The notes below the pieces were generated by a model. That model searched no databases. It worked only from the letters and a program-made list of their open reading frames with translations, and was not told the origin of the DNA. A program made the position numbers and the translations under genes. From Myxococcus sp. (GTDB taxonomy: Bacteria > Myxococcota > Myxococcia > Myxococcales > Myxococcaceae): a stretch of DNA of 46,117 bases. The DNA is taken from the NCBI GenBank assembly GCA_014879945.1, contig JACSRE010000111.1, forward strand, positions 1 through 46,117, given 5' to 3'. Position 1 is the first letter of the stretch. Every line of letters begins with the position of its first letter. Shown here one piece after another: positions 10,270-32,742 of this stretch.

Positions 10270-12876
10270 ATGCGACTCCTCCGACTGGTGGTGATGGCTG
10301 GCGCGGTCTTCTTCTCCGCGTGTCCCCAGGCGCCGTGCGGGCCCGGCACCTGCTTCGGGTGCTGCAGCGCCTCGGGCGAGTGCGTCGGGAGCCAGCCCTC
10401 GTCGTGCGGAGAGCAGGGCGCGGCGTGCGTGGCGTGCCAGCCCGGTGAGGTGTGCGCTGCGGGCCTGTGCAGCACGCTCAACCGTGGCGGTGGCGGGGCG
10501 AGCGGTGGCGGGTCGAGCGGTGGCGGGTCGAGCGCGGCTGGCGGCAGCAGCGGCGGCGGGGCGGCCGGTGGCAGCGTCGGAGGTGGGCTAGCGGGTGGCT
10601 CCGCCGGCGGGCGCAGTACCGGCGGCGGGAGCACCGGCGGCGGACTCGCTGGCGGCTCGGCCGTGGGCGGTGGTGCGGGTGGTGGTGGCCCTTCGTGCGT
10701 GGCCCCACGCCTCACCTGTAACGGCCTGTGCACGGACCCGTCGGGCGACCGCTTCAACTGCGGCGCGTGTTCCCGCCGGTGTGGCCCCGCGGAGTCGTGC
10801 TCCAGCGGCCAGTGCGTGCCAACCGTGTGCACGCCCGGCAGCGGCTGCTCCCTCGCCGATGGTGGCTTTGGTTCCTGCTGTGATGGCACCTGTCGCTCGA
10901 CGTTCGCCGACGCCCTGGCGTGTGGCGGCTGTGGGTTGTCGTGCGCGAGCGGGCTGTGTGCGTCGGGGGTCTGCCTCGTCCGCTGCGGCGCTGACGGCGG
11001 CACCTGCGCCTCGGGGACCGAGTGCGTCACCCGCCCGAGCTCGAGCGCGTGCGCCATCACCACCTGTACCCCGGGCACCGAAGGGGCGACCTGCTCCCTG
11101 GGCGCCGGGCGCTCGGGGCGCTGCTGCAGCAGCGCGTGCGTCGACCTCGACCTGTCTCCCAACTGTGGCGCGTGCGGGCGCGTGTGCTCTGGCCTGACGC
11201 AGTGCCTCAACCGTGCGTGTCAGATCTCCGCCAACTGCAGCTCGGCGATGGTGGGCACCGCGTGCGCGGTCCCCGACGGTGGCGCCGGCTCGTGCTGTGA
11301 CGGCCGGTGTCAGGATGACGTCTTCACCAGCCCCGGCAACTGCGGAGGCTGCGGGCGCACCTGCGGCGTCGGCGCGTCGTGCCTGCGCGGCGCCTGCGCC
11401 ACCGACGCGGGCACCTTCACCGACTGCGCGCAGACCTGCGCCACCGGGACGGCGTGTGTTCAGCAGAAGTGCGTGCGAACCGACTGCACCGGCGCCAACG
11501 TCGGCCAGACCTGCGGGCCGGCGCTGCAGGGCGCGTGCTGCGGTGGCGCTTCGTGCAGCGACCTGCGCAACTCGACCCAGCACTGCGGCGCCTGCGGCCG
11601 GGCGTGCCGGGCAGGGGAGTTCTGCAGCAATGGCGCGTGTCGCCCCACGCCGACGTGCACGCTCACCAACGACGGCACCGCCTGTCCGCTCTCGCCGGGC
11701 CAGCCGGGCCTCTGCTGTGGCGGCGCCTGCGTCGACGCGCTGTCGAGCGCCACCAACTGTGGGCAGTGCAACGCGGGCTGCGGCGCTGGCGCTTCGTGCC
11801 GCAACGGGCAGTGCAACAGGCCTGACGGTGGCTTCTCGTCCTGCTTCAGCGCCTCATCCGGAGACCCGTGCCCGGCGAGCACCGCGTGTGCGGCCAACAA
11901 GTGCGTTCCGCTCGCGTGCCCACCGGGGAGCTCCGGCGGCGCGTGCGCCTACGGGCGCACCTCGACCAACGGCGCGGGCCTGTGTTGTCAGGGCCGTTGC
12001 GTCGACCCCGCCCAGGACCCGGCGAACTGCGGCAGCTGTGGACGCCCGTGCGTGAACGGCCTCTGCCTGCCTGGTGACTTCGGCAACGAGGCGATCTGTC
12101 TGCCGCCGAACCCCGGCACCACCTGCATGCAGAGCTGTGGAGTCGGGACCTTCTGCCTCAACGGACGCTGCGAGAGCGCCTCGTGTGGCAACGGCTCTCA
12201 GGGTGGGGCCTGCTTCGACGGCACCACCGTCGGGGCGTGCTGCGGCTTCATCAGCCAGCAGTGCGTCGACTTGAAGACCGACCAGAACAACTGCGGCGCG
12301 TGCGACCAGCGCTGCCCCGGAGGGGTCTGCATCAACGGGGTGTGCCAGACCGGCGGGCCGACGTGCCAGCGCGGCGACGTCAACCGGTACTGCGACCCCG
12401 ACGCGGGCACCTCGAGCCTGTGCTGCGCGGGCTCGGGCTGTGTCGACACGCTCCACAGCAACGCCAACTGCGGCGCGTGTGGCAACGCCTGCCGCGCGGG
12501 CCTCGCCTGCACCGACGGGCGCTGCGTCGCAGCCAGCTGCGCGCCAGGGCTCCCCAGCAATACCCTCTGCTCCAGCGGCGACGGCGGCCTGGGCACCTGC
12601 TGTGCCACGACCTGCGCGACGTTGGCGACCGACCCGCTCAACTGCGGCCAGTGCGGAAGGCTGTGCGCGGTGGGCGAGGTCTGCTCCGCGGGAGCGTGCG
12701 CGCTCGCGATGTGCAGCCCCAGCACGCTCGGCTCGCTCTGTCACACCGGCGACGCCGGAGTGGGGAGCTGCTGCAGCGGCGGCTGCACGGCCACCCGCTC
12801 CGACCCGCTGAACTGCGGCGCTTGCAACCGGCAGTGCCCGGGCGACGCGGGGTGCGTCAGCGGCATGTGTCGGTAG
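10270..12876 (+). CDS. Cysteine-rich lipoprotein with about eleven Stig1-like modules
   Basis: 868 residues. The signal peptide (LLRLVVMAGAVFFSAC) gives a lipid Cys near residue 18, so it is anchored in a membrane and probably surface-exposed. A short Cys-rich head (~18-70) is followed by a Gly/Ser-rich linker (~72-140). The remainder is a string of ~60-70-residue modules with the pattern NCGxCGxxC...GxxCxxGxC...GxCCxGxCxD, matching the Stig1-type repeats often annotated in Myxococcota. I count eleven NCGxC-like anchors from FNCGACSRRCG to LNCGACNRQCP; the second is degenerate (ACGGCG). Cysteine is near 15% of the modular part. An extended, disulfide-locked stalk with an adhesive or protective role is inference. 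It starts 47 bp after the dehydrogenase gene. Confidence 0.88.
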   Translation: MRLLRLVVMAGAVFFSACPQAPCGPGTCFGCCSASGECVGSQPSSCGEQGAACVACQPGEVCAAGLCSTLNRGGGGASGGGSSGGGSSAAGGSSGGGAAGGSVGGGLAGGSAGGRSTGGGSTGGGLAGGSAVGGGAGGGGPSCVAPRLTCNGLCTDPSGDRFNCGACSRRCGPAESCSSGQCVPTVCTPGSGCSLADGGFGSCCDGTCRSTFADALACGGCGLSCASGLCASGVCLVRCGADGGTCASGTECVTRPSSSACAITTCTPGTEGATCSLGAGRSGRCCSSACVDLDLSPNCGACGRVCSGLTQCLNRACQISANCSSAMVGTACAVPDGGAGSCCDGRCQDDVFTSPGNCGGCGRTCGVGASCLRGACATDAGTFTDCAQTCATGTACVQQKCVRTDCTGANVGQTCGPALQGACCGGASCSDLRNSTQHCGACGRACRAGEFCSNGACRPTPTCTLTNDGTACPLSPGQPGLCCGGACVDALSSATNCGQCNAGCGAGASCRNGQCNRPDGGFSSCFSASSGDPCPASTACAANKCVPLACPPGSSGGACAYGRTSTNGAGLCCQGRCVDPAQDPANCGSCGRPCVNGLCLPGDFGNEAICLPPNPGTTCMQSCGVGTFCLNGRCESASCGNGSQGGACFDGTTVGACCGFISQQCVDLKTDQNNCGACDQRCPGGVCINGVCQTGGPTCQRGDVNRYCDPDAGTSSLCCAGSGCVDTLHSNANCGACGNACRAGLACTDGRCVAASCAPGLPSNTLCSSGDGGLGTCCATTCATLATDPLNCGQCGRLCAVGEVCSAGACALAMCSPSTLGSLCHTGDAGVGSCCSGGCTATRSDPLNCGACNRQCPGDAGCVSGMCR

Positions 12877-13955: not shown

Positions 13956-15055
13956 CAGGGGCCGCCCTTCGGCTTCAGCAGCCGATCCGACACCTTCATC
14001 CACATGAGGCGCGCCGCGACGAGCAACAGCGCCAGCCCCTGAATCAACTCAGGGAAGCTCTTGTGCACGCCGAACAGCTGCATGCGCGTGCCGCCGGCCC
14101 GCAGCCCGCCGAACAGCAGCGCCGAGGCCAGCACGCCCAGCGGGTGCCCGTTGCCGATGAGCGCCATCGCGATGCCGTCGAAGCCGTACGGCGCGCCGAT
14201 GGTGGCGGGGTAGCGCTGCTCCGTGCCGAGGATGAGGACGGCGCCCGCCAGGCCCGCCAGCGCGCCCGACACCAGCATCGCCGAGATGAAGGCGCGCCCG
14301 ACGTTCACGCCCGACGCCCGCGCGGCCTCGGGGTTCGCCCCCACGGCCCGCCACTGAAAGCCGCCCACGAAGCGCGTCAGCCACAGCCACAGCGCCACCG
14401 CCGCCGCGATCGCCAGGAGGATGCCGGCGTTGAGCCGCGAGACGTCGCCCAGGAGCCGCGGGAGCTCGGCGCTGGCGTGAATCTGCGCGGTGCCCGCGAT
14501 GGAGTTGTCGCCCGTCGTCGTCGCGCGCAGCGGGCCGGTGACGAGCCAGTTCTCGACCAGCGACAGCGCCACCCAGTTCAGCATGATGGTGCTGATGACC
14601 TCGTGCACGCCCCGGTAGCGCTTCAAGAGCGCGGGCCCGAGCGCGTAGAGGGCGCCTCCCGCCGCCGCGGCGAGCAGGCAGAGCGCCACGTGCAGCGCCG
14701 TGGGGAGCTCCACCCCCGCGCCCACCACCGCGGCCGCGAGCGCGCCCACGATGAGCTGGCCCTGCGCGCCGATGTTGAAGAGCCCGACCCGGAAGGCCAC
14801 CGCCACCGACAGGCCGGTGAGCGTGAGGATGGCGGCCTTGGTGGCCGACTCGCCCAGCGGGCGCAGCACCGCGGCGCTGGTGCCGCCGTCGAAGAACCTC
14901 GGGAAGTCACCGAACGCGCCCCACGTCATGGCGAGGAACGCGTCGAGCGCCACCTCGAGCCCGCCGCGCAGCACCGCCACCGCGAGGAAGCACACCACCA
15001 ACGAGGTGATGACCGAGGCGACCGAGGGGAGCGCCGCGCGCGCCGTCTCACGCAT
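13955..15055 (-). CDS. ABC transporter permease 1, BMP/nucleoside-type importer
   Basis: 366 residues. The ATG at 15055 is preferred over an adjacent GTG at 15058; GGGAG lies about six bases upstream, and the start overlaps the ATPase stop by eight bases. It is a BPD_transp_2 permease of NupP/YufP type: ~9 hydrophobic spans, a large first extracytoplasmic loop, FRVGLFNIGAQGQLIVGAL (~90-108), a RYRGVHEVISTIMLNWVAL segment and the coupling loop WRAVGANPEAARASGVNV. The ATPase-permease-permease order and the tight overlaps show a co-translated unit. Family members import purine and pyrimidine nucleosides in characterised Firmicutes and spirochaete systems. The substrate here is inferred from that. 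Confidence 0.93.
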   Translation of the reverse strand: MRETARAALPSVASVITSLVVCFLAVAVLRGGLEVALDAFLAMTWGAFGDFPRFFDGGTSAAVLRPLGESATKAAILTLTGLSVAVAFRVGLFNIGAQGQLIVGALAAAVVGAGVELPTALHVALCLLAAAAGGALYALGPALLKRYRGVHEVISTIMLNWVALSLVENWLVTGPLRATTTGDNSIAGTAQIHASAELPRLLGDVSRLNAGILLAIAAAVALWLWLTRFVGGFQWRAVGANPEAARASGVNVGRAFISAMLVSGALAGLAGAVLILGTEQRYPATIGAPYGFDGIAMALIGNGHPLGVLASALLFGGLRAGGTRMQLFGVHKSFPELIQGLALLLVAARLMWMKVSDRLLKPKGGP

Positions 15056-16538
15056 CACGCACTCCCAGCATGCGCTCGCCGATGAGGCGCTCGTCGAACT
15101 CGCCGCGGGTGAACTCGCCCGTCACCCGGCCCTCGTAGAGCACCACCACGCGGTCCGAGAGCGCCAGCACCTCTTCGAGGTCGAGCGACACCAGCACCAC
15201 CGCGCCGCCCTGCGCGCGGAAGTCGAGCAGCCGGCTGCGCACCGCGTCCACCGCGGCGAGGTCGAGCCCGCGGGTGGGCTGCACCGCCACCAGCAGCTTC
15301 GGGTTCGCGTCGAGCTCGCGCGCCACCACCAGCTTCTGCTGGTTGCCTCCCGAGAGCGCGCCGAGGCGGAGCGACGGCGCCCTCGGCCGCACGTCGTGGG
15401 CCTCGAGGAGCGACGTCGTTCGTGACAGCCGCCCTTCGAAGTCGATGCGCGGGCCCTTGGCGAACGGCGCCTGGTGCTGGCGGCCCAGCGCGACGTTCTC
15501 GGCCACGGTGAAGTCGGTGACGACGGCGTGGTGCAGCCGGTCTTCGGGGATGTGCGCGACGCCGAGGCGCCGGGCGGCCCTCGGGGTCAGCGAGGGCTGC
15601 GGGCTCCCGAGGAGGTGCAGCGTGCCCCCGTCGAGCCGGCTCAAGCCCGTCAGCACCGCCGCCAGCTCTCGCTGGCCGTTGCCGTCGACGCCCGCGATGC
15701 CCAGCACCTCACCGGCGCGCACCTCGAGCGAGACGTCCTTCAGCTTGCCGCAGGCGCCGTGGGCCAGCGCCACCACCACGTCGCCGGGCGTCGACGCCGG
15801 AGGGGCCGCCGGCGCCTCGCGCTCCCCCACCATCAGCGCGGCGAGCGAGGCCTGCGTCGACTCCTCTGGCGTCACCTCGGCCACCTTCTTGCCCCGGCGC
15901 AGCACCGCGATGCGGGTGGCGAACGAGAGCACCTCGCGCAGCTTGTGGCTGATGAGCACCACGGTGAGGCCCTCGTCCGAGAGGCGCCGGGTGACGGCGA
16001 AGAGCTCGTCGGCCTCTTGCGGCGTCAGCACCGCCGTCGGCTCGTCGAGGATGAGGGTGGACACGCCGCGGTGGAGCGCCTTGACGATCTCGACCTTCTG
16101 CTGCGAGCCCACCGAGAGCGTGTCGACGCGGGCGTTCACGTCGAGCACGAAGCCGAAGCGCGCGCAGGTGGCCGCCACCTCGGCCTTCGCGCGGGGCAGG
16201 TCGAGCAGCCCGGCCTTCGTCGGCTCGCGGCCCAGCACCACGTTCTCGGCGACGGTGAGGGGGCCCACGAGGGTGAAGTGCTGGTGCACCATGCCGATGC
16301 CGTGCGCGAGCGCGTCGGCCGGCGTGCGGAGCCGCACCTTCTTGCCGTCGATGGCCACCTCGCCTGCGTCGGCGCCGTAGAGGCCGTAGAGCACGTTCAT
16401 CAGCGACGACTTGCCGGCGCCGTTCTCGCCGACGAGGGCGACGCGCTCACCCCGGCCGAGCTCCAGCGAGACGTCGTCGAGGGCGACCTGGCTGCCGAAG
16501 CGCTTCTTGATGTGGCGGAGGGCGATGGTCACCGTCAC
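15048..16538 (-). CDS. ABC transporter ATPase with two nucleotide-binding domains, BMP/nucleoside-type
   Basis: About 496 residues, the usual size for NupO/RbsA-type fused ATPases. Domain 1 has Walker A GENGAGKS (37-44), signature LSVGSQQK and Walker B TLILDEPTAVLTP. Domain 2 has a degenerate Walker A (GVDGNGQRE), signature LSGGNQQK and an altered Walker B region (LLVAVQPTRGLD). One intact and one degenerate site is normal in this subfamily. The start is uncertain: GTG 16538 gives the expected N-terminus (TVTIALRHIKKRFG), GTG 16532 and 16556 are alternatives, and no clear ribosome-binding site is seen. The substrate-binding gene normally adjacent is displaced beyond an opposite-strand esterase. 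Confidence 0.92.
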   Translation of the reverse strand: MTVTIALRHIKKRFGSQVALDDVSLELGRGERVALVGENGAGKSSLMNVLYGLYGADAGEVAIDGKKVRLRTPADALAHGIGMVHQHFTLVGPLTVAENVVLGREPTKAGLLDLPRAKAEVAATCARFGFVLDVNARVDTLSVGSQQKVEIVKALHRGVSTLILDEPTAVLTPQEADELFAVTRRLSDEGLTVVLISHKLREVLSFATRIAVLRRGKKVAEVTPEESTQASLAALMVGEREAPAAPPASTPGDVVVALAHGACGKLKDVSLEVRAGEVLGIAGVDGNGQRELAAVLTGLSRLDGGTLHLLGSPQPSLTPRAARRLGVAHIPEDRLHHAVVTDFTVAENVALGRQHQAPFAKGPRIDFEGRLSRTTSLLEAHDVRPRAPSLRLGALSGGNQQKLVVARELDANPKLLVAVQPTRGLDLAAVDAVRSRLLDFRAQGGAVVLVSLDLEEVLALSDRVVVLYEGRVTGEFTRGEFDERLIGERMLGVRDA

Positions 16539-16644
16539 GGCGGCGCACTGTCTCACGAAGTCGCACCACCTGCCGCAATGGCGCAGAGGCGCACATTCGT
16601 CCACTTGACGAGCGGGTGAACGGCTCTGAGGATTCGCGGCCTCC

Positions 16645-17379
16645 ATGACCGCTCGTCATTTGCTCCTCGACAGCCCCGCCCTCGGCCGCCGCGTTCACGT
16701 CTGGTGTTTCGGCGTCGTCGGCACCCCCGTCATCGTCTTCCCCTCGAACGCCGGCGTCGCGCACGAGTGGCGAGAGAGCGGCATGGTCGACGCGCTCGGG
16801 CCCCTCTTCGCCGCGGGCCGCATCAAGCTGTACTGCCCCGAGAGCAACATCTCGCAGACGTTCTCAGGTGAGGGCTCGCTCGAGGCGCGCATGCACCAGC
16901 ACCACCTCTACGAGCGCTTCATCCTCGAGACGCTGGTGCCCTTCATCCAGAAAGACACCCACCAGCCGCACGTGCGGGTGCTCGCGACGGGCTGCAGCAT
17001 GGGGGCGATGCTGTCGTCGCTCTTCGCGCTCAAGCACCCCGAGGTGTTTCGCGGCGCGCTCTGCATGTCGGGCCGGTACCGGGGCGCGGGCTTCGTGCGC
17101 GGCGGCGCGTCAGAGGCCTCGTACTTCAACGATCCGCTCGCCTTCCTGCCGAACCTCGACGGCGCGCCGCTGGAGCGCGTTCGCCGCCAGACGCACCTGA
17201 CGCTCGTGGTGGGCCGCGGGCCGTTCGAGAACAGCTGCATTCCTGAGACGATCGAGCTGGGTGGGTGGCTGCGGAAGAAGGGCGTTCCCCACCACCTGGG
17301 CGTGTGGGGCCACGACAGCCGGCACGAGTACTCGTGGTGGAAGCGGCAGGCGCGGCACTACCTGGCGCAGCTGACGTAG
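16645..17379 (+). CDS. Esterase-family alpha/beta hydrolase
   Basis: 244 residues. The nucleophile elbow GCSMGA lies at ~113-118, with Ser ~115 as likely catalytic residue, and a late GHDSRHEYSWWKRQ contains the probable catalytic His. Other segments fit the putative-esterase (EstD/antigen-85-like) family: PVIVFPSNAGVAHEW, KLYCPESNISQTFSGEG and LFALKHPEVFRGALCMSGRY. No signal peptide is present, so it is likely cytosolic. The substrate is unknown. It lies on the plus strand, dividing the minus-strand importer genes. Its stop is only three bases from the stop of the BMP lipoprotein gene, and its start is ~105 bp from the ATPase start. Confidence 0.85.
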   Translation: MTARHLLLDSPALGRRVHVWCFGVVGTPVIVFPSNAGVAHEWRESGMVDALGPLFAAGRIKLYCPESNISQTFSGEGSLEARMHQHHLYERFILETLVPFIQKDTHQPHVRVLATGCSMGAMLSSLFALKHPEVFRGALCMSGRYRGAGFVRGGASEASYFNDPLAFLPNLDGAPLERVRRQTHLTLVVGRGPFENSCIPETIELGGWLRKKGVPHHLGVWGHDSRHEYSWWKRQARHYLAQLT

Positions 17380-17382
17380 CCT

Positions 17383-18519
17383 TCAGTTGGCAGGGGCGAC
17401 GAAGCCCTCGAGGTCCTTCTCGTTCGAGGGCACCACGACCGCGCCGCTGATGATGGCTGTCTCGAGCGCCTTCACCTTCGCCAGCGCCTCGGCCTTGCCC
17501 GGGAAGTCGAGCGTCACCTCGGCCAGCGTCACGCCGCCCTCCTTGAGGCCCATCACCGAGTCACCCGCCGAGAACGCCTTGCCCTCGAGGTCCTTGATGG
17601 CCTGCCACACCGCGAGGTCCACCCGCTTCACCATCGACGTGAGCACCGCCTCGGGCGCCAGGTGTGACTGGTCGGAGTCGACGCCGATGGCGAACACCGG
17701 CTTGCCCGCCGCGCGCGCCTCTTTGACCGCCTGAATGACGCCGGTGCCGTCGCTCCCGGCGGCGTGGAAGACGACCTCACAGCCCTTCGCCACCAGGTCG
17801 GTCGCCACCTGCTTGCCGTGCTGCACGTTGTCGAAGGTGCCCGTGTATTGCACCAGCACCTGCGCGCCCGGGTTCGTCGTCTTCACGCCCGCGCGGAAGC
17901 CCGCCTCGAACTTCTTGATGAGGGGAATCTCCATGCCGCCCACGAAGCCGACCTTCTGCTTCGCCACCAGCCCCGCGAGCGCGCCGGCGAGGAAGCTGCC
18001 CTCCTGCTCCCTGAAGACGACCGTGCGCACGTTGGGGAGCGTCTGCGGCGCGCCCTTCGCGTCGAGGATGGGGCTGTCGATGAGCAGGAACTTCGCGCCC
18101 GCGTTCTGCTTCGCCACCGCCTCGACCGCGTTCTCGAGCGCGAAGCCGACGCCGACGATGAGGTCGGCCCCCTGGTCGACGACGAGCTGCAGGTTCGGCT
18201 GGTAGTCCTCCTGCACCTTCGACTGCACCACCAGCGGCTTGAGCGAGACGGGCGTCACCCGCGCCTTGAGCGCCGCGGGGATCATCGCCTCGCGCGTCGC
18301 CGGCGCCATCGCCTCGTAGCGGCCACCCTTGAAGCTCGCGCTGGCCGCCCACACCTCGAGCCCGCGCAGCGCCGAGTCGTTGAAGGACTGGTCGCCGCGG
18401 CCGCCGATGTCGGTGACGAGGCCGACGGTGAGCGCCGGCTTCGGCGCCGCGTCTTTCGCGTCAGACGACTTCTTGCAGCCACCGGCAACCAGGAGCATCA
18501 GCAGGAGCGCGCGTCGCAT
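17383..18519 (-). CDS. BMP-family substrate-binding lipoprotein of the ABC importer
   Basis: 378 residues from ATG 18519, with GAGG about six bases upstream. The signal peptide LLLMLLVAGGCKKSSD puts the lipid Cys at 15. The mature protein follows the BMP/PnrA fold: VGLVTDIGGRGDQSFNDSALRGLE (~32-55), then QGADLIVGVGFALENAVEAVAK, LAGLVAKQKVGFVGGMEIPLI and GCEVVFHAAGSDGTGVIQAVKEA. PnrA/TmpC proteins bind purine nucleosides. The DQSFNDSA segment belongs to the ligand pocket of that family. It should deliver substrate to the permease pair encoded at 13.1-15.1 kb. It is convergent with the intervening esterase and divergent from the GNAT gene. Confidence 0.93.
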   Translation of the reverse strand: MRRALLLMLLVAGGCKKSSDAKDAAPKPALTVGLVTDIGGRGDQSFNDSALRGLEVWAASASFKGGRYEAMAPATREAMIPAALKARVTPVSLKPLVVQSKVQEDYQPNLQLVVDQGADLIVGVGFALENAVEAVAKQNAGAKFLLIDSPILDAKGAPQTLPNVRTVVFREQEGSFLAGALAGLVAKQKVGFVGGMEIPLIKKFEAGFRAGVKTTNPGAQVLVQYTGTFDNVQHGKQVATDLVAKGCEVVFHAAGSDGTGVIQAVKEARAAGKPVFAIGVDSDQSHLAPEAVLTSMVKRVDLAVWQAIKDLEGKAFSAGDSVMGLKEGGVTLAEVTLDFPGKAEALAKVKALETAIISGAVVVPSNEKDLEGFVAPAN

Positions 18520-18582
18520 GAGTGCCTCGCTTGTAGCGCCCGACCACGCGACGGCAAAGCGCTCGCGGAGTACCGTCGGCGC

Positions 18583-19212
18583 ATGCCCGCCACCGCCGCT
18601 GCTCAGGTGATTCCCGTCCCCACGCTCGGCACCGCGCGGCTGCGGCTGCGCGACTGGCGTGACGACGACCTGCCCGCGTTCGCGGCGCTCAACCTCGACC
18701 GCGAGGTGCGCCGCTACTTCCCCTCGGTGATGACGCCCGCCGAGTCCGACGCCTTCGCGGGCTCGATTCGCCAGCTCCTCTCCGCCAACGGCTGGGGCCT
18801 GTGGGCCGTCGAGGTCGTTGGCGGCGCGCCCTTCATCGGCTTCGTGGGCCTGGCGCGGCCGAGCTTCGAGCCCTTCACCGCGTGCGTCGAGGTCGGCTGG
18901 CGGCTGTCGCGTCAGGCCTGGGGGCAGGGCTACGCCACCGAGGCGGCGCGCGCGGCGGTGGCCTTCGGCTTCACCTCGCTGGGGCTCGCGGAGGTCGTCG
19001 CCTTCACCGTGCCGGGCAACACCGCGTCTCGCCGCGTGATGGAGAAGCTGCGCATGCGCCGAGACGAGGCCGGAGACTTCCTTCACCCGCGCGTCGCGCC
19101 CGGGCACCCGTTGCAGCCGCACGTCCTGTACCGGCTCTCGTACGAGGCGTGGGCGGCGCCCCATGACGCCCTTCGTCATGCCGCGGCTTCGGAGTCTGCG
19201 CCGCCGCGCTAG
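18583..19212 (+). CDS. GNAT N-acetyltransferase, RimJ/RimL type
   Basis: 209 residues from ATG 18583. It opens with the Acetyltransf_3 signature: TARLRLRDWRDDDLPAFAALN, then EVRRYFPS, a VEVGWRLSRQAWGQGYATEAARAAVAFGF acetyl-CoA loop (motif A, Q/RxxGxA-like at WGQGYATEA) and VPGNTASRRVMEKLRMR. Members acetylate ribosomal protein N-termini or small amines; the acceptor here is unknown. The stop is 9 bp before the bpt start, so the two genes probably share a transcript. Confidence 0.9.
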   Translation: MPATAAAQVIPVPTLGTARLRLRDWRDDDLPAFAALNLDREVRRYFPSVMTPAESDAFAGSIRQLLSANGWGLWAVEVVGGAPFIGFVGLARPSFEPFTACVEVGWRLSRQAWGQGYATEAARAAVAFGFTSLGLAEVVAFTVPGNTASRRVMEKLRMRRDEAGDFLHPRVAPGHPLQPHVLYRLSYEAWAAPHDALRHAAASESAPPR

Positions 19213-19221
19213 AAAGGCCCC

Positions 19222-20001
19222 GTGGCCCGTCTGGTTCGTCACTTCGTCGAAGAGCCGCGTACGTGCTCGTACCTCGCCAACCTCAAGGCGGCGCTCGAGT
19301 ACCGCTTGATGGTGGACGTCACGCCGATGGAGCTGCAGGCGCTGGTGATGCGCGGCTGGCGGCGCTTCGGCCCGGCGTATTTCCGGCCCGCGTGCCCCTC
19401 GTGCCAGGAGTGCGTCTCGATTCGCCTCGACGTGCACCGCTTCCTCCCTACCCCGAGCCAGAAGCGGGGCCTCAAGCGCTCCAAACGGTTTCGCGTCGAG
19501 GTGGGGCGGCCGCGCATCGACGAGGCCCGCCTCGACCTCCACACCGCGTGGCACGGCACCCGCGAGAGCACTCGAGGCTGGGAGCCCACCAACCTCACCG
19601 AAGACGAGTACGCCACGCAGTTCGCGTTCCCCTCGAGCACGGGGCGCGAGATGGCCTGGTACGACGGCGAGCGGCTGGTGGCGCTGGGCCTCATCGACGT
19701 CACGCCCGACTGCTTGTCCGCCGCGTACTTCTTCTTTCACCCCGACATCGCGCGCCTCTCTCCGGGCGTCGGCAACGTGATGCGCTGCGTGGAGCTGGCG
19801 CGCGAGCTGGGCTGCCAGCACATGTACCTGGGCTACCGCGTCGAGGGGTGCCCGTCGCTCACCTACAAGGGCACCTTCCGGCCTCACGAGCTGCTGATGG
19901 GGCGGCCGAGCCTCGAGGAAGAGCCGGTGTGGCTCGAGGCGCAGCGAACGGCGACGCCGCTGCCTGACCTCGACGCGCCGCTGCCCGACGACAAGGACTG
20001 A
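19222..20001 (+). CDS. bpt: Aspartate/glutamate leucyltransferase (bacterial ATE family)
   Basis: Transfers leucine from Leu-tRNA to N-terminal Asp or Glu of proteins, marking them for ClpS/ClpAP degradation. 259 residues from GTG 19222 (AAAGG upstream). The N-domain shows CSYLANLKAALEYRLM and the paired cysteines ACPSCQECVSIRLDV; the C-domain shows GREMAWYDGERLVALGLIDVTPDCLSAAYFFFHPD and the GCQHMYLGYRVEGCPSLTYKGTFRPHELL block. These are all typical of Bpt. The conserved Cys cluster is thought to bind a metal or iron-sulfur centre in ATE1 relatives. Substrate specificity (Bpt versus eukaryotic-like Ate) is assigned by bacterial context. Confidence 0.92.
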   Translation: MARLVRHFVEEPRTCSYLANLKAALEYRLMVDVTPMELQALVMRGWRRFGPAYFRPACPSCQECVSIRLDVHRFLPTPSQKRGLKRSKRFRVEVGRPRIDEARLDLHTAWHGTRESTRGWEPTNLTEDEYATQFAFPSSTGREMAWYDGERLVALGLIDVTPDCLSAAYFFFHPDIARLSPGVGNVMRCVELARELGCQHMYLGYRVEGCPSLTYKGTFRPHELLMGRPSLEEEPVWLEAQRTATPLPDLDAPLPDDKD

Positions 20002-28462: not shown

Positions 28463-29035
28463 CTATTCGCGCGAGGCCGTCTTCGGCGGGTCGTCCTTCT
28501 GGCTGGCGGCCATGGTGGCGAAGGCGATGTTGCCGTAGCCCGCCGCCGCGCACGAGAACATCACCCGCTTGATGATGCGGAACTGCACCTTCTTGTCGGC
28601 CTGAATGTTCACGTCGCCCTTGAAGGCGCCCGAGTCGTTGGCCGCGTTGTGCAGGTCTTCGAACTGCTTCTTCATGTCGCGCAGCTTCTCTTCGAGCTGC
28701 GGAATGTTGAGGTAGTCCTCGCGGGTCAGGTCGTCGACGCGGCCCACCGAGGTGCCCGAGACGATGACCTGCTCCTTCGAGACCTGCACCACGGGCGCCA
28801 GCTGGAGCTCGTCCGTGTTCGAGGCCTCAGGCAGCTCGATGTCCTTCGACATCGCGAGGATCTCACCCGTCGCCGAGAAGTTGGCGATGAGGAAGAGCAC
28901 GAGAATGACGAACATGTCGACGAGCGGCGTCACGTTCAGGTCGGCGTTGATGTTCTTCTTCCCACCCGGGTGGCCGAACACCTTCGAGTGCTGCAGGCGC
29001 TTGCCGTACCGTTTTCCTGGGGCTTCGATGGCCAT
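28463..29035 (-). CDS. ExbD/TolR-family protein (second copy)
   Basis: 190 residues from ATG 29035. A basic cytoplasmic N-terminus (KRYGKRLQHSKVF) precedes the single transmembrane helix NVTPLVDMFVILVLFLIANFS, in which the Asp of PLVDMF is the proton-carrying residue essential in ExbD/TolR. A periplasmic domain follows, longer than usual, with a helical insert (EEKLRDMKKQFEDLHNAAN) and the ExbD-type strand FKGDVNIQADKKVQFRIIKRVMFSCAAAGYGNIAFATM. It forms the proton-driven motor with the TolQ/ExbB homologue of the same operon. The previous exbD ends 15 bp upstream. Confidence 0.92.
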   Translation of the reverse strand: MAIEAPGKRYGKRLQHSKVFGHPGGKKNINADLNVTPLVDMFVILVLFLIANFSATGEILAMSKDIELPEASNTDELQLAPVVQVSKEQVIVSGTSVGRVDDLTREDYLNIPQLEEKLRDMKKQFEDLHNAANDSGAFKGDVNIQADKKVQFRIIKRVMFSCAAAGYGNIAFATMAASQKDDPPKTASRE

Positions 29036-29050
29036 GGTCGCGTTTCTTTC

Positions 29051-29533
29051 TTAGCTGGAGGCGGGAGACACCGAGACGCTGGGAAACTGCGCGCCGATGG
29101 CGGTGTCGATGATGCGCACCAGGTCTTCGTAGAGCACGTTGTCTTCGGTCTGCAGGGTGATGGAGGCCTGGTCAGGCTGCTCCGCCTTCACCTTGCCGAG
29201 GTTCTCGACGAGCTTCTTGAGCTCGACCCGGCCCTTGTCGTCGCGGGTGATGGGAATCGGGTCGTACTGCAGGCCGCCGACCGAGAGCTTGAGCTCCTTC
29301 TCGGTGATGAGCAGCGACGGCGGGGGCGGCTTGTTCTCTTGCGGCTGCTCTTCCTGCGCAGACTGCCCCGACTGCGACACCTGCAGGCGGCCCAGCTGCG
29401 TCCACACGGCCGACATGATGAGGAAAACGATGGTGACGGCCATCAGGTCGATGAACGGCACGAGGTTGATGCTGGTGTCGAGGGGCTTCTTGCCGCCTTT
29501 TCCACCACCGCCTAGGTCCATACCGCCGGCCAT
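29051..29533 (-). CDS. ExbD/TolR-family protein (first copy)
   Basis: 160 residues from ATG 29533; AAGGAG lies six bases upstream. The gly-rich N-terminus (MAGGMDLGGGGKGGKKPLDTS) leads to the transmembrane helix INLVPFIDLMAVTIVFLIMSAV, with the conserved Asp in PFIDLM. The periplasmic part has a Gln/Pro-rich linker and an ExbD fold (LSVGGLQYDPIPIT, QASITLQTEDNVLYEDLVRIIDTA). Two non-identical ExbD paralogues after one ExbB are frequent in Myxococcota, where such units drive gliding or outer-membrane processes. The exact partner cannot be told from sequence. Confidence 0.92.
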   Translation of the reverse strand: MAGGMDLGGGGKGGKKPLDTSINLVPFIDLMAVTIVFLIMSAVWTQLGRLQVSQSGQSAQEEQPQENKPPPPSLLITEKELKLSVGGLQYDPIPITRDDKGRVELKKLVENLGKVKAEQPDQASITLQTEDNVLYEDLVRIIDTAIGAQFPSVSVSPASS

Positions 29534-29608
29534 GTGCTGCTCCTTCGTTTCACCCGGCGTCAGCCGGTGGCACTCAAAGAAGAACTGCGTTCGACTCACC
29601 AAGACAGT

Positions 29609-29639
29609 GACGGCCGGGAAGGGTTCCCCCCCGGCCGTC
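29609..29639 (-). terminator. Strong intercistronic hairpin between exbB and the first exbD
   Basis: A perfect 10-bp stem, GACGGCCGGG at 29609-29618 with CCCGGCCGTC at 29630-29639, has room for further G-C pairing inside. It sits in the 132-bp gap between the exbB stop and the next start. No T-run follows on the minus strand, so full termination is unlikely. Attenuation or an mRNA-stabilising end that favours exbB expression is more likely. Confidence 0.6.
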
Positions 29640-29665
29640 GGAGGCACGTCACCGAACGGGGAGGA

Positions 29666-30391
29666 TTACTCCTCGGCCTGCGCGGGGACCGTCAGGTTCT
29701 TGAACTTGTCCTTGTTCTGGACGACCAGGTTCAGCACCGCGACCGACGTCTCGCTGATGTCGTTGATCAGCGACTGGGTGCGGCCGTTGAGCACCGAGAA
29801 GAAGATCAGGAGCGGGATGGCGGCGATGAGGCCGAAGCGGGTGCAGTTCATCGCTTCACCGATGGAGCCGGCGAGGATGGTGGCGCGGTCGGCAGGCGCG
29901 GCGTGCGCGACGGCCTTAAACGAGCCGATGAGACCGTCGACCGTGCCGAGCAGACCGGCGAGCATCGCCGCGTTGCCGAGCATGGCGAGGTAGCCGGAGC
30001 GGGCCTCGAGCTTGGGGTTCTCGCGCAGGGCCGCCTCGTCGAGCGCCGCCTGCACTTCCTCTTCACCCTTGGGAACGTTCATCAGGCCCGACTTCACGAC
30101 GTTCGTGAGCGGCGTGGGCTTCTGACCGGCGACGTAGTTGATCGCCTTGTCGAGGTCGCCTGCGTAGATGTGCTTCTTCAGACCGCGCAGGAAGCCGTCC
30201 TTGTTGATGGCGGCGCTGAAGAACAACACGATCGTGCGCTCGACCGTGATGGCAAGGCCAATCACGAGGAAGAAAGCGATGGGGTACATACCCCAGCCAC
30301 CTTCGACCCATGCGTGGGCGATAGAAGCGAAGAGGCCCATTTCTTCACCAGCGGCCTCAGAAGCGAGCGGAATCAGCGATGCGAGCGTCAT
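29666..30391 (-). CDS. MotA/TolQ/ExbB proton-channel protein
   Basis: 241 residues from ATG 30391, with GGAGG about eleven bases upstream. ATG at residue 18 is an alternative. It has three membrane spans: GGWGMYPIAFFLVIGLAITVERTIVLFF (~30-57), then LAMLGNAAMLAGLLGTVDGLIGSFKAVA (~135-162, with the GLLGTVxGLIxxF motif) and MNCTRFGLIAAIPLLIFFSVLN (~184-205, with the conserved Thr). The cytoplasmic loop lies between the first two. It is the stator pentamer of a proton-motive-force motor with the two ExbD proteins encoded downstream. The first gene of its operon, it is preceded by a good sigma-70-like promoter. Confidence 0.94.
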   Translation of the reverse strand: MTLASLIPLASEAAGEEMGLFASIAHAWVEGGWGMYPIAFFLVIGLAITVERTIVLFFSAAINKDGFLRGLKKHIYAGDLDKAINYVAGQKPTPLTNVVKSGLMNVPKGEEEVQAALDEAALRENPKLEARSGYLAMLGNAAMLAGLLGTVDGLIGSFKAVAHAAPADRATILAGSIGEAMNCTRFGLIAAIPLLIFFSVLNGRTQSLINDISETSVAVLNLVVQNKDKFKNLTVPAQAEE

Positions 30392-30462
30392 TGCGGGAAT
30401 GCCTCCAACCTGTGTCCAGTGTGTGACTGTCTTCGGATCAGGACCGTCCGAAAATCGCGCGC

Positions 30463-30492
30463 ACCATAAGCGCCTGCGGAAAAGGGTGTCAA
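30463..30492 (-). promoter_or_regulatory. Sigma-70-like promoter of the exbB operon
   Basis: On the minus strand a perfect -35 TTGACA (30492-30487) is followed after 18 bp by TATGGT (30468-30463). A one-base shift gives TTATGG at 17 bp. The expected start lies ~65 bp before the exbB ATG. It is one of the few consensus-like promoters in this GC-rich window. Confidence 0.65.
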
Positions 30493-30602
30493 GGCACGAT
30501 AAAGGGGCGTGAAATCGGGCCTTCTCCTACCCTGCGGGAACGGCGTTTTTCCCGTCTCCTGAGAGTCGCCCCGCGGCCCGGTGTGGATCAGCCCGGGGGG
30601 AA

Positions 30603-31400
30603 ATGACAGAGAGCGTCGCCATGTCGCGAAAGCGGATTGGCGAGCTGTTGCTCGAGCGCAACGTCATCACCAAGCAGCAGCTCGAGGCGGGGCTGTTGGC
30701 CCAGCAGCGCACGCGGCAGCGCCTGGGCATCACCCTCATTCAGCAGGGCGTGCTCTCAGAGGCGCAGCTCGCCGGCGCGCTCGCCGCGTCGCTGGGGCTG
30801 CCCGCGGTCGACCTCGTCAAGGTGCAGGTCGACTGGAGCGCGGTGCACATGCTCCGCACGCGCTTCTGCGAGAACCACGAGGTCTTCCCCTTCGGCATCG
30901 ACGGCAAGGGCACCACCACCAAGCGCCTGGTGGTGGCCATGAGCGACCCGCTCAACCAGCCCGCCCTCGACGAGATCGAGTTCACCACCGGGCTGAAGGC
31001 GGCGCCGTGCGTGGCCACGCACTCGCAGGTGCGCGAGGCGATCTTGCGCTACTACCACAAGGTCACCGCGAGCGCGGCGTCGCCCCGGCCCGGCGGCATG
31101 CCCGGCGCCGCCACCATGCGGCTGATTCCTTCGCCGGTCGAGGCAGACGAGCCGGTGGTGATGGGCGAAGAGATCATCTCCATCGGCAACCCGCTGCCAC
31201 CCGACGTCGAGGTGCCCGCGAAGGCGCCCGCGAAGAAGAAGCTCGAGGGCGCCTCGCGAGACCTCGAGTTCCTCTTCGGCCTCGAGGGCAACGACGACGT
31301 CGAGACCATGGAGCGCCGCTTCTGGGCGCTGTTGCGCCTGATGCAGAAGAAGGGCCTCATCACCCGCGAAGAGTTCTTGAACGAGCTGGGCGAAGAGTAG
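30603..31400 (+). CDS. Stand-alone MshEN (GspE N-terminal) domain protein, probable c-di-GMP binder
   Basis: 265 residues from ATG 30603 (GGGGGGA upstream); ATG 30621 is also possible. Residues 11-34 and 40-63 are two 24-residue RLGxxL...QLxxALxxQ-type motifs separated by exactly five residues (QRTRQ). This is the layout of the cyclic-di-GMP-binding MshEN domain at the N-terminus of type II secretion and type IV pilus ATPases. The rest of a T2SSE_N fold follows (VDLVKVQVDWSAVHML, VVAMSDPLNQPALDEIEFTTG to ~150). There is no ATPase domain. Instead a Pro/Lys linker leads to a C-terminal helical segment (~215-265). In motif I a conserved Gly is replaced by Asn 20. It probably acts as a c-di-GMP-responsive adaptor; this is inference. 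Confidence 0.88.
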   Translation: MTESVAMSRKRIGELLLERNVITKQQLEAGLLAQQRTRQRLGITLIQQGVLSEAQLAGALAASLGLPAVDLVKVQVDWSAVHMLRTRFCENHEVFPFGIDGKGTTTKRLVVAMSDPLNQPALDEIEFTTGLKAAPCVATHSQVREAILRYYHKVTASAASPRPGGMPGAATMRLIPSPVEADEPVVMGEEIISIGNPLPPDVEVPAKAPAKKKLEGASRDLEFLFGLEGNDDVETMERRFWALLRLMQKKGLITREEFLNELGEE

Positions 31401-31409
31401 CGCCGCGCC

Positions 31410-32585
31410 TCAGGCGGCCGCGCGCGCCGACCGCTCGAGCACGTCGCTCCACTGCCGCGCGACCTCGGGCGAGGCCGCGAACAACGTGCAGTGAAGCTCG
31501 TGCACCTCGCCGCGCTTGAGCGCGCGCTGCACCACCGCCCACACCTTCACCGGCGTGCCCTGCACCTGCAGCTCCACCAGCCGGTTGGTCTGGAGCGCGT
31601 CTTTCGCCAGCGCGACGAAGCCGTGCGCGTCGGCCCGCCGCACGTCGAGGAGCGTGGGCTTCGCCGCCCCCTTGAGCTCGAGCGTGAGGGCCACCGGGCG
31701 GGTGCTGGGGGCGGCGCCGGTCGGCAGCCCGGGCTCGGGGGCGAGGGCGGGCGTCACCACGGCCTCGGCGGTCGCCGCGTCGCCTTCGAACGCGCTGATG
31801 GCCGACGGAATCGAGGGAATCGACGCCGCCAGGCGCTCGCACGCGGGGGGCGGGAGCCCGGTGAGCGCCTCGAGGGCCCGCGCGTCGACGCCGGCCTGCT
31901 GCTCCAGCGCCTCGACGATGCGGTCGGCGAGGGCCACCCGACGGGTGAGAGCGTCGGCCGGCGCGGCGTCGTGGTGCGTCGCGATGACCTGCGCGAGCGC
32001 GACCGGCAACTGCCACCGGCCCGAGAGGATGAGGCCGAACCTCGCGTGCTCCTGCTCCAGCAGCGCCTCGACCGTCGCTGGCGCGGCGCGCAGGTCGGAG
32101 CGCTTCGCCAGGGCGTCTTCGATGCACCCGATGATGAGGAGCTTACCGGCGTCGTGCAGGAGCCCCGCGACGAACGCCTCGCCGGCGTCGCTGCCGTCGA
32201 CCCTGGCGAGGGCTTCGGCCACCAGCGCCGCGGTCAACGAGCGCCTCCAGACCCCGCGGCGCAGCTCCGCGAGCGGGCCTGCGGCCGACGCGGCGTTCGA
32301 GACGCTGGCGGCCATCGCCAGGCGCGTCAGCTCCTTGGTGCCGATGCGGCCGACGGCGAGGCCCAGCGACGTCACCGCGTCTCCGCGGCGGTAGAAGGGC
32401 GAGTTCGCCAGCCGCAAGATGTTGCCCGCGAAGACCGCGTCGGTGCGCATGGCGTCGACCAGCGCCGTCATCGAGAAGTCGGGCTGCGCCATCACCTTCT
32501 GCAGCTTCATCGCCGTCGACGGGTACGGAGGGACCCGCACCGAGTCCTTCTGCACCGCGTCTGCGAGGGCCTCTGCGAGCTCCAT
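31410..32585 (-). CDS. HDOD-domain protein with possible degenerate PilZ-like C-terminus
   Basis: 391 residues. ATG 32585 is preferred over the adjacent GTG 32588 (GGAAGG upstream). The HDOD domain (~10-210) has VPPYPSTAMKLQKVMAQPDFSMTALVDAMRTDAVFAGNILRLANSPFY, GLLHDAGKLLI and ATHHDAAP. HDOD proteins are signalling relatives of HD-GYP domains without full metal sites. After a Pro/Ala linker, the last ~100 residues (LLDVRRADAHGFVALAKDAL..., VKVWAVVQRALKRGEVHELHCTLF, ARQWSDVL) look like a PilZ-type barrel whose RxxxR binding motif is missing. That part is tentative. The gene is convergent with the MshEN gene, stops 9 bp apart. Confidence 0.88.
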   Translation of the reverse strand: MELAEALADAVQKDSVRVPPYPSTAMKLQKVMAQPDFSMTALVDAMRTDAVFAGNILRLANSPFYRRGDAVTSLGLAVGRIGTKELTRLAMAASVSNAASAAGPLAELRRGVWRRSLTAALVAEALARVDGSDAGEAFVAGLLHDAGKLLIIGCIEDALAKRSDLRAAPATVEALLEQEHARFGLILSGRWQLPVALAQVIATHHDAAPADALTRRVALADRIVEALEQQAGVDARALEALTGLPPPACERLAASIPSIPSAISAFEGDAATAEAVVTPALAPEPGLPTGAAPSTRPVALTLELKGAAKPTLLDVRRADAHGFVALAKDALQTNRLVELQVQGTPVKVWAVVQRALKRGEVHELHCTLFAASPEVARQWSDVLERSARAAA

Positions 32586-32742
32586 CACGCCACCTTCCCG
32601 CGGCTTGGCGCGCCGCGCCGAGTTGCTGCTCGCTTCAACAGCAAGCGGGCGGCCAGCGTCGGCCGAGCGGCCGAGGTCGCGCGTCAGGCGGAGGGCCTGG
32701 CCGGGGCGCCGCGCCGCCCCGACGCGCCCGCCGAAACGACGA

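Follow-up and report, generated by a model that had tools for sequence, protein, structure and literature searches.

In MshE of Vibrio cholerae (PDB 5htl; PMC5013675), the MshEN domain is built from two motifs of 24 residues each, five residues apart, and a following MshEN_C subdomain, and the nucleotide is contacted by Arg, Gly and Leu residues. The GSPII-A and GSPII-B domains of PilF from Thermus thermophilus, a pilus ATPase that carries three domains of this kind, have the same fold, and their binding sites have been dissected by mutation (PMC11731258). GSPII-B still binds when the motif-II Gln is changed (Q218E, PDB 9glg; Kd 460 nM) or when motif I is mutated (950 nM), and only the double mutation abolishes binding; no binding is seen for GSPII-A, in which motif I has a His and motif II is degenerate (PMC11731258). 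MshEN proteins that stand alone are already known and are numerous in myxobacteria (PMC5013675, PMC8844925): 17-22 MshEN genes have been reported for M. xanthus (PMC8844925, PMC5013675), and 17 MshEN proteins were counted in one of these studies (PMC8844925). The second system of interest is AglRQS, the proton-driven gliding motor of M. xanthus, whose subunits AglR, AglQ and AglS have 245, 162 and 194 amino acids; its description does not mention a divergent MshEN gene (PMC3169522). What we add to this is the linkage of a distinct MshEN subfamily, with an altered binding site, to the gliding motor. In the literature searched, no mention was found of the gene beside aglR or of the MXAN_6863 locus.

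The window, by which we mean the whole stretch of 46,117 nucleotides analysed here from a Myxococcus sp., encodes a stand-alone MshEN protein of 259 amino acids (mshEN, 30621-31400, plus strand), as judged from the open reading frame, Pfam and NCBIfam matches and the starts of orthologs. The sequence-only reading had used an upstream ATG at 30603, which gives a product of 265 amino acids. Since the orthologs begin M-x-R-K-R-I-G, the second ATG, at 30621, is probably the true start; residue numbers of that reading are therefore 6 too high, and its Asn20 is Asn14. Its description of the motifs stood. Direct reading of the sequence gives motif I, RIGELLLERNVITKQQLEAGLLAQ (30633-30704), and motif II, RLGITLIQQGVLSEAQLAGALAAS (30720-30791), each of 24 residues and separated by exactly five, and the region is matched by NCBIfam NF053729 (cyclic di-GMP-binding, MshE-related) with 55.3 bits (cut-off 38) at residues 11-62, counted, like the range that follows, on the 265-residue form. 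The MshEN_C subdomain (30792-31061) is recognised by Pfam PF05157 at residues 64-153 (66.5 bits, cut-off 23.1) as well as by an AlphaFold2 model and Foldseek. In that model, which is based on an alignment of 56 family members, pLDDT exceeds 90 across the MshEN module, and of the PDB structures, c-di-GMP-bound MshE of V. cholerae matches the model best (5htl_B; E 2.7e-11, target TM 0.82, 36% identity). Pfam and NCBIfam detect no further domain above its cut-off, in particular no AAA+ ATPase domain with Walker motifs, and the reading frame stops at 259 amino acids. The protein is thus not a secretion or pilus ATPase of the GspE/PilB/MshE type, and that no ATPase follows the MshEN module had been read correctly from the letters.

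Apart from the missing ATPase, the window protein differs from MshE of V. cholerae in a Ser in place of the last Gln of motif II, an Asn in place of the motif-I Gly, and in an added linker and C-terminal hairpin. The linker (31062-31244) is predicted to be disordered, with pLDDT mostly below 50. The helical hairpin, ERRFWALLRLMQKKGLITREEFLNEL (31290-31388), is modelled with a pLDDT of about 87 in its core and is a candidate partner-binding element. A C-terminal helical element had been proposed before; it is indeed predicted, and it is conserved to the same degree as the MshEN domain (mean column identity 0.74 and 0.71, respectively, against 0.41 for the linker). The genome holds no clear second copy of it; one paralog (L007) reaches E 0.07. 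Other myxobacterial stand-alone MshEN proteins, for example L006 and L007, likewise lack an ATPase, and some have a short C-terminal helical tail. The tail of L007 (G000:C341) is the one with this weak likeness to the hairpin; L007 itself is a stand-alone protein with both Gln kept and is the first gene of a tandem with another MshEN gene (L005). In total, 14 MshEN domains are encoded in the genome of the window. The paralogs that we compared differ from the window protein in that both Gln are kept and in that they lie on contigs other than that of aglRQS.

Divergent from mshEN, on the minus strand, lies an operon (28463-30391) with the order TolQ-TolR-TolR according to Pfam. Its genes are orthologs of aglR (29666-30391; TolQ/MotA/ExbB family, the channel subunit of the gliding motor), aglQ (29051-29533) and aglS (28463-29035; both TolR/ExbD family), and gene order and lengths match those of the M. 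xanthus motor (PMC3169522). In the M. xanthus locus (L089), open reading frames of 245, 162 and, from the first ATG, 194 amino acids lie beside the mshEN ortholog, and AglR of that locus is 71% identical to that of the window. On the sequence evidence the operon is aglRQS, orthologous to MXAN_6862-6860. Assignment of the TolQ/TolR genes to a Tol-Pal system was considered and rejected: a separate TolQ-type match (~35%) was found besides the AglR ortholog in all 16 genomes searched except G004. In the intergenic region between aglR and mshEN (30392-30620) there is a conserved box of the TTGACA type (30487-30492, complement); it faces aglR and is a candidate promoter only. The AgmX/PglI tail family is matched 22 times in the genome, with 15 matches above the cut-off, which suggests that Glt components are present as well.

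Orthologs of the mshEN product, defined by identity, full-length alignment and a gap that separates ortholog from paralog scores, extend across the order with identities from 86% down to ~40%, and a close ortholog is present in 69 of 117 sampled genomes. In 65 of these 69, mshEN and aglRQS are divergently oriented, and 1504-1878 bp separate mshEN from the start of aglS; all 65 belong to the Myxococcaceae and one sister family, and the four exceptions to two other families (taxonomic assignments are based on named loci). The genes on both outer flanks of the mshEN-aglRQS block change among genomes. A plasmid or phage origin was looked for as well, and yielded distant matches to the MshEN part only, none of which covers 80% of the query. 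Beyond the Myxococcaceae and the sister family, mshEN is located elsewhere, e.g. beside a glutamine synthetase gene, so the older role of the protein may have been something other than gliding. In three loci from other Myxococcota (L118, L119 and L120), the ortholog lies directly upstream of that gene. The motor can do without mshEN, since it is absent from four relatives that keep aglRQS (G001, G009, G011 and G017); AglR of G001 is 97% identical.

This linkage replaces the partner that had been proposed for the protein. Convergent to mshEN, with a gap of only 9 bases, lies a gene (31410-32588, minus strand) for an HDOD protein (PF08668, E 2.1e-41), and the sequence-only reading took the two as one small c-di-GMP output module. 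It had also noted a PilZ-like tail without RxxxR, and this was borne out: the tail (~31416-31700), in a model built from five sequences only, consists of six strands and a C-terminal helix and matches PilZ domains (4xrn_D; probability 1.00, target TM 0.70, E 4.6e-3), while Pfam finds no PilZ domain there. Convergence and the predicted PilZ-like fold thus speak for a joint module. Neither RxxxR nor (D/N)xSxxG is present in the tail, however, so it lacks the sequence marks of a c-di-GMP-binding PilZ domain, and a survey of the pairing in 117 genomes did not reveal a conserved unit. The HDOD ortholog adjoins mshEN in four genomes of one genus only (G000, G002, G003 and G005, with a gap of 0.7 kb in G003); it is 1.5 kb away in G018, G007 and G021 carry it on a different contig, and G006, also a member of that genus, has no HDOD gene between mshEN and atpA. 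It is missing from most of the order, and mshEN is common where it is absent. A common c-di-GMP output module of the two proteins is therefore very improbable, and the conserved partner of mshEN is aglRQS. Solved relatives of the HDOD protein include SadB of Pseudomonas aeruginosa (9qzk).

Does the MshEN module still bind a nucleotide? In a survey of the site in 56 family members, using the numbering of V. cholerae MshE, Arg9, Gly11, Leu25, Leu29, Arg38, Gly40, Gly47, Leu54 and Leu58 are retained in nearly all; Arg9 is Lys in six. In motif II, only one of the 56 has retained Gln61; the other 55 have Ala, Ser, Val or another residue in its place (Ser in the window protein). In motif I, Gln32 is still present in 40 members, including the window protein, and lost in 16, where it is His in 15, among them the M. 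xanthus ortholog. Gly18 of motif I is replaced in 23 members, by Asn in the window protein and by Arg in M. xanthus. The strict c-di-GMP-binding consensus asks, in each of the two motifs, for an RLG start, a Gly turn, LxxxL and a Gln at the end. The window protein does not conform to it: in motif I, Leu is replaced by Ile and Gly by Asn, and the last residue of motif II is Ser. Judged by these residues, the site is asymmetric, with motif I largely kept and motif II altered. The Asn at the motif-I Gly had been named beforehand as a change that might prevent binding. The substitution is there, as Asn14, although it affects a structural position that varies across the family, and the loss of the final Gln of motif II is the graver change.

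Its direct analogue is the Q218E variant of GSPII-B, and as this variant retains a Kd of 460 nM, loss of the motif-II Gln alone need not abolish binding. The site of the M. xanthus ortholog resembles that of GSPII-A. Taken together with the site residues, the PilF mutants make it plausible that the window protein is a weak c-di-GMP binder and doubtful that the M. xanthus ortholog binds at all. An alternative is that nucleotide sensing has been lost altogether and that the gliding or kinase system uses the degenerate MshEN fold as a scaffold for protein interactions. The losses of Gln in motif II (55/56) and motif I (16/56) and of the motif-I Gly (23/56) would be in line with this, all the more as both Gln are intact in the paralogs of the same genome (L006, L007 and L012) and in its PilB (L001). 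A pure scaffold would, however, have no need for the Arg-Leu-Gly starts and Leu clusters, which are almost invariant, and PilF tolerates the loss of one Gln with sub-micromolar binding. We therefore regard a complete loss of sensing as somewhat unlikely.

The published effects of c-di-GMP on motility of M. xanthus mainly concern type IV pili (PMC4877007), which speaks against a role of the protein in gliding. Its nearest relatives in structure and sequence are the N termini of PilB, PilF and MshE. It could thus be argued that a free MshEN domain mimics the N terminus of PilB and regulates type IV pili, either by competing with or modulating PilB or by binding PilZ- or FimX-like partners, and that the position beside aglRQS is historical. 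PilB is encoded in the genome of the window, and PDB entries exist in which the N-terminal domain of a PilB is bound to PilZ. On the other hand, aglRQS is linked to mshEN in all 65 genomes of the Myxococcaceae and the sister family, no pil gene was seen among the neighbourhoods examined, the conserved C-terminal hairpin is absent from PilB, and the mshEN family has been lost in relatives with PilB-like proteins. A role in piliation is, on balance, distinctly unlikely.

A further neighbour may point to signalling. In most Myxococcaceae, a PAS/GAF histidine kinase is encoded convergently behind mshEN, followed by a GAF-PAS protein in which HisKA was found and no HATPase domain was detected; in M. 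xanthus the kinase region is at L089:10200-14124. Several families of the Myxococcales carry kinase orthologs beside or near aglRQS, and where mshEN is absent, these are found immediately upstream of aglRQS or at a distance of up to ~2 kb (L160, from G011, and L161, L162, L166 and L181). One locus (L111) has mshEN and both kinases, with aglRQS absent within the stretch examined, and in the genome of the window the first kinase is on a separate contig, with 58% identity. Different genomes thus link different pairs among mshEN, the kinases and aglRQS, which is a stronger argument for a functional relation than one frozen block would be. It is possible that the PAS/GAF kinase pair provides the signalling input to the gliding motor.

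Taken together, we favour, at a probability of roughly 40%, that the mshEN product is a cytoplasmic adaptor that regulates the Agl-Glt gliding machinery, with the MshEN module as the sensor and the hairpin as the output, joined by the linker. This sensor-tether-output arrangement is suggested by the hairpin being conserved like the MshEN domain, by the far less conserved linker and by the lack of a clear second copy of the hairpin. In this genus the module would probably bind c-di-GMP or cGAMP, weakly and asymmetrically; the M. xanthus ortholog possibly binds no ligand. The flexible linker would tether sensor and output, and the hairpin would contact a partner, which, from the gene linkage, is most likely the AglRQS motor complex or the neighbouring PAS/GAF histidine-kinase pathway. 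The state of ligand or partner would then tune gliding, in one direction or the other, and gliding would not require the protein. mshEN is not among the transposon hits defining the gliding clusters listed in PMC3169522. This, together with its dispensability, fits a modulator and does not fit a structural part. The best reading of the sequences is thus a dispensable modulator of gliding with a weakened, lineage-dependent sensitivity to c-di-GMP.

YcgR and MotI are PilZ effectors that act on flagellar stators. A cyclic-dinucleotide effector acting on a motor of the MotA/TolQ family would be an analogous idea, with a different receptor domain. It is tempting to speculate further that the stand-alone MshEN protein is a clutch or assembly switch controlled by cyclic dinucleotides that acts on AglRQS via the hairpin, with sensing worn down, for example, in Myxococcus. 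We consider this specific version unlikely; if true, it would be a receptor dedicated to Agl-Glt gliding, and its MshEN domain would act through an output other than an ATPase or a glycosyltransferase.

The route from cyclic dinucleotides to the gliding machinery is not yet established. Bdellovibrio leaves its prey by gliding under the control of an enzyme that makes cGAMP (PMC9140294). For Myxococcus, the effects of c-di-GMP on motility that have been documented are mostly exerted through pili, and some PilZ proteins also influence gliding (PMC8316039). The mshEN product is a candidate for the missing connection from cyclic dinucleotides to gliding. With a receptor-fold protein beside the gliding motor family-wide, a single gene is at hand whose deletion can be assayed in a genetically tractable bacterium.

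Elsewhere in the window, an open reading frame of 868 amino acids (10270-12876, plus strand) matches the Stig1 (stigma-specific STIG1-like) family in six stretches. On the minus strand, a long open reading frame of uncertain start (17386-19887) ends in a Bmp/PnrA-type substrate-binding domain and is adjoined by a two-domain ABC ATPase (15051-16646); the two likely form a nucleoside-type importer.
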